A DNA stretch of 64,000 nucleotides from the NCBI GenBank assembly GCA_005223125.1, contig NJBH01000010.1:1-64000 (forward strand), in the 5' to 3' direction. The notes under the pieces are model-generated. The model was not told the DNA's origin, ran no database searches, and worked only from the letters and a program-made list of their open reading frames with translations. This stretch comes from Promethearchaeota archaeon Loki_b32 (GTDB lineage: Archaea; Asgardarchaeota; Lokiarchaeia; Sigyniarchaeales; SOKP01). Numbering within the stretch: the first letter of the stretch is position 1; every line of letters begins with the position of its first letter. Made by a program: the position numbers and the translations under genes. This document shows, piece after piece, positions 56,912 to 59,117 of the stretch.

Positions 56912-56932
56912 AAGCACTTAAGGTGTAAGCTT

Positions 56933-57337
56933 ATTCAATTCGGGTCTGATTTAGGAATCAATCAAGAGGATATCGAGAAGATAAGTCCTCAAATTACATT
57001 TATTACCTCTAACGCAGATATTGAAGCGATTGCGCTTGTAAGTTTTGAAGGATATCAAATTGCTTTCTCTGCTTTACCACAATATCATGTTGATGGGGAC
57101 CAATTTTGCGGGCTTGCTAGCGCATTATTAATGACAGGTAGATCTACAATTCAAACTGTATTTCAAGAAGATCTAAGTGAAATAATAGTAAGAGCTGAAA
57201 ATGGATATATTATTATTACAAATGCGGGAAGGTTAGTAATTGTTTGTGCTGGGACTATAATTGATACCCTAATGAAGACTGTAAAAGTTATGAGAATAGC
57301 GGCGAAAAACCTCTATAAAATTTTTGAAAGCCGTTAA
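56933..57337 (+). CDS. Roadblock/LC7-domain protein with a probable ATT start
   Basis: The frame is open from 56912 (after a TAA at 56909-56911) to the TAA ending at 57337. It reads Q-F-G-S-D-L-G-I-N-Q-E-D-I-E-K-I and then A-I-A-L-V-S-F-E-G-Y-Q-I-A, D-Q-F-C-G-L-A-S-A-L-L and G-Y-I-I-I-T-N-A-G, the beta-helix-beta pattern of roadblock (MglB-like) proteins that regulate small GTPases. The first ATG, at 57131, would cut the domain in half, and there is no ATG, GTG or TTG before it. ATT at 56933 is preceded by AAGGTG (56920-56925) with 7 bases between, giving 134 residues. Either ATT is the start, or the gene has lost its start and is decaying. The body shows no frameshift or stop. Confidence 0.6.
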   Translation: MQFGSDLGINQEDIEKISPQITFITSNADIEAIALVSFEGYQIAFSALPQYHVDGDQFCGLASALLMTGRSTIQTVFQEDLSEIIVRAENGYIIITNAGRLVIVCAGTIIDTLMKTVKVMRIAAKNLYKIFESR

Positions 57338-57500
57338 ATTTAATTATTCATTTTAGTTCCTTTAAAATTCTTGTCTAAGTTTAATTCTAAAGAAAAAATT
57401 TTGAATATTCAAACTATTTTTACCAAATAACAATAGATTTTTATTTATTAATGTATGTATAATTGAAATAAAATAAAGAATTAGTTATTTTTTTGTTATA

Positions 57501-57551
57501 ATGGCAACTGTAAAAAATATCACTTGGCAGTGGCCTTGGCGTTGGCAATAG
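57501..57551 (+). CDS. Tryptophan-rich leader peptide upstream of trpB2
   Basis: A 16-codon frame, ATG to TAG, encodes M-A-T-V-K-N-I-T-W-Q-W-P-W-R-W-Q. Four of the last eight codons are TGG (57525, 57531, 57537 and 57543), each followed by C. Trp is the rarest amino acid, so such a run is very unlikely by chance. The next gene on the strand, 150 bases on, is tryptophan synthase beta. In bacteria this is the layout of the trp leader peptide, where a ribosome stalling on Trp codons controls termination. I infer the same role here. Translation is not proven, and I see no strong ribosome site; the message may be nearly leaderless. Confidence 0.6.
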   Translation: MATVKNITWQWPWRWQ

Positions 57552-57604
57552 AGCCAATTGCAATGGAGTTTACTTAAATTTATTTTTTCATTTTAATATT
57601 TTTT
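57541..57604 (+). promoter_or_regulatory. Candidate attenuator: hairpin over the leader stop codon followed by T-tracts
   Basis: GTTGGC (57541-57546) pairs with GCCAAT (57553-57558), a stem of 6 bp including one G-U, with the leader stop codon in the loop. The strand GCCA can also pair with the TGGC at each earlier Trp codon, so alternative structures depend on where a ribosome sits. Two T6 tracts (57583-57588 and 57599-57604) follow and could be archaeal termination sites. Confidence 0.4.
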
Positions 57605-57635
57605 CTTTAAATATTAAAACCTCTTTCTAAATGAG

Positions 57636-57686
57636 CATTAATCATATTGGTCTCCAATATTTTAATGATACACATCTTAAGATGTG
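57636..57686 (+). repeat. Stem-loop and perfect 16-bp palindrome just upstream of trpB2
   Basis: CATTAA/TTAATG (57636-57641 with 57662-57667) encloses ATATTGG-TCT-CCAATAT (57644-57660), together about 13 bp of stem. CACATCTTAAGATGTG (57671-57686) is a perfect palindrome. Either could be an operator for a dimeric regulator or an RNA element near the trpB2 start at 57702. Confidence 0.5.
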
Positions 57687-57701
57687 AAAAAATGATTAAA
57701 A

Positions 57702-59117
57702 ATGGGAACCAAAATGATGGATTATTATAACGGTAGAATTTTATTACAACCAAATGAAATTCCAAAAGAGTGGGTGAATATTTTACCAGATTTACCCTCA
57801 TCTATGACGCCCTTGATAAACCCAATGGATGGGAAGCCAGTTCCACCAGAAATGGCATTCGCTATATTTCCTAAAGAATGTGTTTTACAGGAAGTTTCGC
57901 AAGAACCTACTATTCCTATTCCTAATGAATTAAGGGAATTTTTTGCTAAAACTTATCGACCAAGTCCACTCCACCGTGCTTTGGGATTAGAAAAAGACTT
58001 AGGATTAGAAGGAGATAAAATAAAGATTTTTTATAAAAATGAATCTGTATCTCCAACTGGATCACACAAACCAAATACGGCAATAACCCAAGCATTTTAT
58101 GCGAAAAAGGAAGGAACGGAAGAATTAGTCACCGAGACGGGAGCAGGGCAATGGGGTTCCGGATTGGCATATGGATGCAATTTATACGAACTTAAATGCA
58201 CTGTATATATGGTAAGAGCGAGTTTTATCCAAAAACCAGGAAGAAAAATTCTTATGAGAATTTATAATGCTGAAGTACATGCAAGTCCTTCTAAATTTAC
58301 TGAATCTGGAAGAAAATTTTTAGAAGAGGATCCAGAGCATGATGGAAGTTTAGGTATTGCTATATCTGAAGCATTAGAACATAGTATGCGAAGTGATAAA
58401 ATTAAATACTCTCTTGGAAGTGTAGTCAATTTTGTTCTTCTACATCAAACTATTATAGGACAAGAAGCAAAAATGCAACTAGCGAAAATAGGTATTGAAA
58501 AGCCCGATATTGTAATTGGATGCATGGGAGGAGGATCTAATTTTTCAGGTTTAATGATTCCATTTGTAAAAGATAAAATCAATGGCGTTCATCCAGATAT
58601 AGAAATAATCGGTGCAGAACCCCGTGCTTGTCCAAGTATTTGTAAGGGAGAATATAGATGGGATTATGGAGATACAGCTATGAAAGGCCCTATTGTAAAG
58701 ATGCATACATTAGGACATACCTTTATACCAACTCCAATCCATGCAGGAGGATTAAGATATCACGGAATGGCACCAATAGTCTCAATATTATACAACAATA
58801 AATTAATTAAAGCAACAATGCATCATCAAACAGAAGTTATAAGAGCGGGAATTAAATTTACTCATACTGAAGGAATAATTCCCGCCCCAGAATCTGCTCA
58901 TGCTATAAAAGAAGCAATTGATCAAGCTTTAAAAGCTAAAGAAAATAATGAAAAGAAAGTCATTCTATTCAATCTCAGTGGTCATGGCTTTTTTGATTTA
59001 TTAGCTTATAAAGAATATATGACTGGAAATCTTGTGGATTATGAATTGCCTACTGAAGAAATTCAGAAAGCCTTAGCTTCTATTGAGATGCCAAAAATCG
59101 ACGATACTCAATTTTAA
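57702..59117 (+). CDS. trpB2: Tryptophan synthase beta subunit, TrpB2 type
   Basis: The PLP enzyme joins serine and indole to form tryptophan. The 471 residues have the PLP lysine in T-G-S-H-K-P-N-T-A, the E-T-G-A-G-Q-W-G-S loop, and the phosphate-binding G-C-M-G-G-G-S-N. The N-terminal W-V-N-I-L-P-D-L-P and the length are those of TrpB2, the long archaeal form that often acts without TrpA. No trpA or other trp gene is next to it, so it may salvage indole or use a partner encoded elsewhere. The ATG at 57714 is an alternative start that keeps all conserved parts. The Trp-codon leader and hairpins upstream suggest control by tryptophan. A T10 tract follows the gene. Confidence 0.92.
   Translation: MGTKMMDYYNGRILLQPNEIPKEWVNILPDLPSSMTPLINPMDGKPVPPEMAFAIFPKECVLQEVSQEPTIPIPNELREFFAKTYRPSPLHRALGLEKDLGLEGDKIKIFYKNESVSPTGSHKPNTAITQAFYAKKEGTEELVTETGAGQWGSGLAYGCNLYELKCTVYMVRASFIQKPGRKILMRIYNAEVHASPSKFTESGRKFLEEDPEHDGSLGIAISEALEHSMRSDKIKYSLGSVVNFVLLHQTIIGQEAKMQLAKIGIEKPDIVIGCMGGGSNFSGLMIPFVKDKINGVHPDIEIIGAEPRACPSICKGEYRWDYGDTAMKGPIVKMHTLGHTFIPTPIHAGGLRYHGMAPIVSILYNNKLIKATMHHQTEVIRAGIKFTHTEGIIPAPESAHAIKEAIDQALKAKENNEKKVILFNLSGHGFFDLLAYKEYMTGNLVDYELPTEEIQKALASIEMPKIDDTQF

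Follow-up and report, generated by a model that had tools for sequence, protein, structure and literature searches.

The window, a stretch of 64,000 nucleotides from Promethearchaeota archaeon Loki_b32 (contig NJBH01000010.1), carries trpB2, a gene for tryptophan synthase beta (57702..59117), preceded by a short leader frame at 57501..57551; these and all features of the element described below lie on the + strand. The trpB2 frame is 471 aa long; its homologues align from residue 3-5 onward, so 57714 or 57717 is a possible true start. The leader, MATVKNITWQWPWRWQ followed by a stop, reads ATG GCA ACT GTA AAA AAT ATC ACT TGG CAG TGG CCT TGG CGT TGG CAA TAG, i.e. 16 codons including four TGG (57525, 57531, 57537 and 57543), with TAG at 57549-57551 and 150 nt from this stop to the start of the trpB2 frame. 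Around and beyond the stop are a hairpin whose loop contains the stop codon (GTTGGC-AATAGA-GCCAAT, 57541-57558), two T6 tracts (57583-57588 and 57599-57604) and a second strong stem-loop before trpB2 (57636-57667; fold z = -3.0). All of these, the leader frame with its four TGG codons and its distance included, had been listed in an initial annotation and agree with our reading of the DNA. The RNA from 57460-57700 is more stable than any of its shuffles (z = -3.69; 0/200 as stable). The 60-nt hairpin region alone is of unremarkable stability in this species (z = -0.44), so what supports it is the comparison of species, not the folding energy.

A TATA-like promoter element (TTTTTATT, 57438..57445) was assigned by sequence motif only and would place the transcription start ~25 nt downstream; an RTTAAC-TTTTTAWA-like motif occurs 47–63 nt before the leader ATG at 23/26 Lokiarchaeal loci. 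Directly upstream of the leader, a frame at 56930-57337 ending ...TVKVMRIAAKNLYKIFESR appears to be of roadblock/LC7 type, and similar sequence is also found upstream of trpB2 in relatives (L046 and L047). In the window genome (G000, 95.5% complete) neither trpA nor trpD was detected; the trpB2 is an orphan that probably makes Trp from indole. In the same genome the ilvC (KARI C-terminal) match falls in two pieces (G000:C3:22861-23279), which suggests a broken or misassembled gene.

Trp-rich leaders were scored as frames of 8–60 aa within 520 nt upstream that have W.W or WW in their last 16 residues, and expected counts were taken from dinucleotide shuffles. Such a frame precedes trpB2 at 19 of 25 Lokiarchaeal loci (0.65 expected) and at 11 of 16 loci from other Asgards (0.43 expected), counts that, like those for trpD, are not independent trials because the loci share descent. 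A pattern search located the same motif on contigs also bearing trpB1, which hold trpD-trpC-trpF-trpB(-trpA) operons (gene names are based on length, order, recognisable sequence, trpD and trpB matches and a trpA family hit). At trpD, the head of this separate operon, a leader was found at 7/9 Lokiarchaeal loci versus 0.12 expected, and a Trp-rich frame at 5/12 other loci versus 0.5 expected. The leader heads two unlinked Trp loci, and one genome, G007, has it on both trpB2 and the trp operon (L031, L072). Upstream regions of control genes qualified in 11 of 231 cases (1/35 in the window and 10/196 in the loci). Most of the statistical weight lies with the loci from other Asgards and with the occurrence in two unlinked gene contexts. 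The initial annotation had staked its reading on relatives keeping a Trp-rich frame at this place; the frame is kept at trpB2 across Lokiarchaeia and other Asgard families and also at trpDCFBA, and the leader is a genuine phenomenon, far wider than a single locus and larger than was first supposed.

The hisG, ilvC and pheA loci yielded no W-rich frame (0/34) and no convincing cognate-rich leader in the 900 nt scanned before the domain match, a span that could miss farther operon heads. No such leader lies near the gene in a small sample of non-Asgard archaeal trpB2 loci (L019-L021, L024-L026), and trpE-led operons in several Asgard families have no clear leader. In family f17, short frames with multiple Trp codons (e.g. 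MFFVRLYVWFGLWEWKC...) were seen ~160–200 nt before trpE at L117 and L120. A record labelled Chloroflexi (L022) has a short frame, MSTMSWAWPREGHAQP, 117-66 nt upstream of a trpB2 relative, which could be a comparable leader in a bacterium. Five genomes with a leaderless trpB2 (L004/L036, L008/L043, L044, L046, L047) retain a trp operon, whose leader has Trp codons. Frames of ~85–100 aa were observed between the leader and trpD at L093 (-259..-1), L094 (-253..-1) and L090 (-301..-1, all relative to trpD).

The relatives are Lokiarchaeia. Leader frames read upstream of trpB2 at loci from Lokiarchaeia and other Asgards include MATVNNWAWRWQWPWRWR, MATLQTFGWQWPWCWQ, MTLAKNLAWRWQWPWRWR, MVTENNCFCWQWPWRS and MPLFLINNRAWQWPWRA. 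Beyond f1, the Lokiarchaeal family, the frames differ and W-x-W near the stop is retained (..RTFSWSWRE, ..TFPWAWRP, ..YGYWAWREL, ..CEFWPWQ, ..SSFWAWRWLTWP, ..LFWRWQWCWRWQ and ..FIWPWNN), and leaders of trpD operons include MTISFANHFGWQWPWRWQ, MATENNCFWSWQWPWRWQ, MATEKIILFRWQWLWRA, MTTAKNFVWRWQWSWWRWQ, MAIAPRTFSWVWRG, ..LFLWRSWWWI and ..WFCWLFWYW. The Trp codons are constant, and the positions separating the first TGG from the last hold 29 different codons. The DNA between the Trp codons is unrelated in distant Asgards, yet an in-frame start, the Trp codons and a nearby stop persist. Leader length changes mostly by whole codons, the exception being L007, where the frame changes close to the end of the leader. 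Since the Trp codons stay while others change, and start and stop stay in frame, these comparisons argue for selection on the Trp codons within a read frame.

The regulatory codons lie within a covariation-supported RNA hairpin, P2, in which the Trp-codon block (5' arm) is paired with sequence after the stop (3' arm). In the window, cross-species pairing identifies an upper stem between GUUGGC, which includes the last Trp codon (57541..57546), and GCCAAU, directly after the stop codon (57553..57558). A lower stem joins CCUUG, from Pro and Trp codons (57534..57538), to CAA-U-GG within the conserved CAWWGG segment (57561..57566), the latter defined by sequence conservation and pairing. The arms of P2 read GTTGGC/GCCAAT in the window, AGTGGC/GCCACT at L032, GGCGTT/AACGCC at L003, L009 and L041, GGTCTTG/TAAGACC at L002, GGCGCG/CGCGCT at L087, GCACGC/GCGTGC at L088 and, in an 11-pair version, TGGGTCTGGCG/CGCCAGGCTCG at L111. 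The lower stem pairs as CAGTG/CATTG or as CCTTG/CAA-T-GG, and at L039 CCT has become CCC, a change that is synonymous for Pro and goes together with a compensatory CAG-T-GG. The register of P2 also varies: some species use the last Trp codon (GTTGGC/GCCAAT) and others pair in the Arg-codon register before it (GGCGTT/AACGCC), which bears out the original suggestion that several TGGC units are able to pair with the same post-stop GCC.

A further stem, P1, is formed by the 5' UTR and the sequence after P2 (TGGTTTA/TAAACCA, AAATATGGTTTAA/TTAAATCATATTT, TCCTAT/ATAGGA); it is not evident in the window (leader domain z = 0.2). When arms were exchanged between species, in a test that counts related species as independent, cognate partners were more stable than swapped ones for both P1 (-9.58 versus -7.57 kcal/mol, p = 0.00015) and P2 (-11.21 versus -10.36 kcal/mol, p = 0.0026). 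Leader-end hairpins beat their shuffles (z < -1) at 23 of 28 Lokiarchaeal and 11 of 17 other loci. Compensatory pairing, put forward initially as a check on the leader, is present in the P2 and P1 arms across species; together with the conserved frame it backs the original interpretation of a Trp leader-peptide attenuator. The covariation indicates that pairing of the leader with the post-stop region is under selection.

Downstream of the leader, the zone from stop+25 to stop+50 is enriched in T at 29 Lokiarchaeal loci (T 0.55 / A 0.24, versus T 0.37–0.40 / A 0.43–0.44 upstream), and a T run of at least 4 is present in this zone at all 29. On this base composition, the U-rich tract of the window, which comprises both T6 runs (57583..57604), is a candidate termination zone. 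An A/U hairpin (UUUUAAUAUUU...AAAUAUUAAAA, 57591..57619) overlaps the second T tract; it is clear in the nearest relatives and not general. Only in some other Asgards does a hairpin run straight into a U run (L100, GGTGGA..TCCACC-TTTTT; L057). In Lokiarchaeia a gap separates the U tract from P2, and termination in archaea does not require a hairpin, which leaves the part played by the hairpin in termination uncertain. U-tracts and aCPSF1/FttA serve archaeal termination; a published suggestion has ribosomes competing with aCPSF1 for Spt4/5 bound to RNA polymerase (PMC8116511).

With a probability of roughly 0.6, we read the element as a ribosome-operated tryptophan attenuator. The promoter ~60 nt upstream would yield a leader RNA whose 16-codon frame is read by a ribosome. 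With ample charged tRNA-Trp, the ribosome would get to the stop codon and depart; the Trp-codon block would then pair with the post-stop sequence to form P2, just ahead of the U-rich tract and closed in many species by the P1 stem to the 5' UTR, and RNA polymerase would halt at the U-rich tract, by intrinsic termination or through FttA/aCPSF1. Under Trp shortage, the ribosome would be stalled on the Trp codons, and since these make up the 5' arm of P2, its formation would be prevented; the stalled ribosome would cover the RNA behind the polymerase, and the polymerase would continue into trpB2 (or trpDCFBA). We infer that starvation is the ON state because the controlled genes are biosynthetic.

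Shortly upstream of the first gene of the unit (trpB2 or trpD) lies another conserved hairpin, P3 (model R1; 57629..57676 in the window, and loci L146-L175), identified by covariation, covariance-model search and fold. Its 48 nt include a bulge of 3 nt that precedes CACA, and its tip reads UUG-RNNUC-CAA. In its alignment, for which eight rows received an N in their internal loop to hold register, 10 of 17 pairs have changed on both sides, with a covariation score of 0.197 versus 0.113 for shuffles and at most 0.085 for slid alignments. A covariance model run over 46 family genomes gave strong matches, among the loci opened, only upstream of trpB2 or trpD, which rules out P3 as a general element. 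Because P3 is retained at L004, where the leader is lost, it has a role of its own, possibly as a separate regulatory element.

Cognate partners had no advantage in the arm-swap test between P3 and either the leader block (p = 0.86) or the 5' UTR (p = 0.70). The post-stop segment and P3 likewise show no covariation (p = 0.66), though their near-invariant CATTGG and near-invariant CCAAT may conceivably pair. An antiterminator pairing of the two, CATTGG/TCCAAT, looked attractive but gained no support, the cognate being no better than the swapped version and the P3 tip differing at L054 and L055; the same test gave no support for a bacterial-type terminator/antiterminator switch through the second stem-loop. 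These results bear on a post-transcriptional alternative, which we regard as unlikely, in which the stalled ribosome would alter the translation or stability of the trpB2 or trpD message, perhaps via P3 near the gene start. The conservation of P3, its restriction to trp loci and its place just before the first gene would suit such a role, as would the hairpin-independence of archaeal termination and the gap that P2 of the window leaves before the U tract. Against it stand the failure of P3 to co-vary with the leader block or the post-stop segment, the position of the U-rich zone directly after the leader domain, and a leader-to-gene distance that ranges from 55 to >500 nt, with another frame intervening before trpD at L093 and L094.

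It is improbable that the element is instead a structured, riboswitch-like RNA with Trp or tRNA-Trp as ligand, its frame incidental and its TGG repeats kept for pairing. The repeats do lie within P2, and nucleotide conservation of the leader is strong within Lokiarchaeia, but the other Asgard families keep the in-frame start, Trp codons and stop amid unrelated inter-Trp DNA, and comparison with Rfam returned nothing at gathering level, the bacterial Trp leader included. T-box and TRAP also control trp genes at the RNA level, in bacteria; the element has no T-box motif, specifier stem or Rfam match, and no TRAP-type array of (G/U)AG repeats 2-3 nt apart (longest chain 1), and both were rejected.

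Still less credence is given to a TnaC-like arrest peptide, whose nascent chain would sense free Trp in the ribosome. The well-conserved WQWPW of Lokiarchaeia would accord with it, as Trp and Pro residues occur in TnaC. E. coli tnaC, a Rho-linked arrest peptide, resembles the Asgard element in having a short Trp-bearing leader and a ribosome whose stalling is proposed to block a termination factor. TnaC, however, senses free Trp via specific nascent-chain residues and switches on a degradative operon, whereas here the genes are biosynthetic, for which Trp-induced expression has the wrong sign, and only the Trp codons are constant: their neighbouring residues differ without constraint among Asgards (S, A, V, Q, L, C, M), and no residue other than Trp was found to be invariant. 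That the frame is a stand-alone small protein there by chance, e.g. a Trp/Arg-rich antimicrobial-like peptide, is scarcely credible, since, for all that Trp-rich antimicrobial peptides have a composition like its WRWQWPWRW, the TGGCAGTGGC-type motif occurs solely ahead of trp genes in the Lokiarchaeal genomes searched and RNA pairing with the post-stop region is selected.

Leader-peptide Trp attenuation is established in bacteria. Like Escherichia coli trpL, the Asgard element places tandem Trp codons in a short frame upstream of genes for Trp synthesis, and it has a Trp-codon block that pairs just past the leader stop (as segments 1:2 do) and a U-rich zone downstream. Unlike trpL, it is archaeal, encodes another peptide, lacks a supported 2:3 antiterminator and a GC-rich 3:4 terminator hairpin, has a P1 stem to the 5' UTR and an extra P3, and also precedes an orphan trpB2. 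The Asgard leader would work like trpL in the proposed model; homology to trpL has no Rfam match to rest on. In archaea, the trp control named is by Methanothermobacter TrpY and Thermococcus Tar, which, like the Asgard element, control Trp-synthesis genes in response to aromatic amino acids, but which are promoter-acting DNA-binding proteins without a reported leader peptide or RNA element (PMC6737238). Our literature search, which most subscription journals lay outside and which does not prove absence, found no description of leader-peptide attenuation in archaea or Asgards; as far as found, a ribosome-operated Trp sensor is apparently undescribed in archaea. We tentatively propose, at somewhat less than even odds, that leader-peptide attenuation exists in archaea and is old within the Asgards, being spread over several families and present at trpB2 as well as trpDCFBA, and that it would operate without the bacterial terminator/antiterminator pair, the stalled ribosome directly occluding the hairpin along with the RNA on which a U-tract/FttA-type terminator depends.

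If this is true, the lineage nearest to eukaryotes controls transcription through the position of the ribosome. Such control would bear on archaeal transcription-translation coupling and on the competition between the ribosome and aCPSF1/FttA, which a review has posed as an open question (PMC8116511). The element would also be a compact reporter system, and it hints at where further archaeal RNA-based control may be sought.
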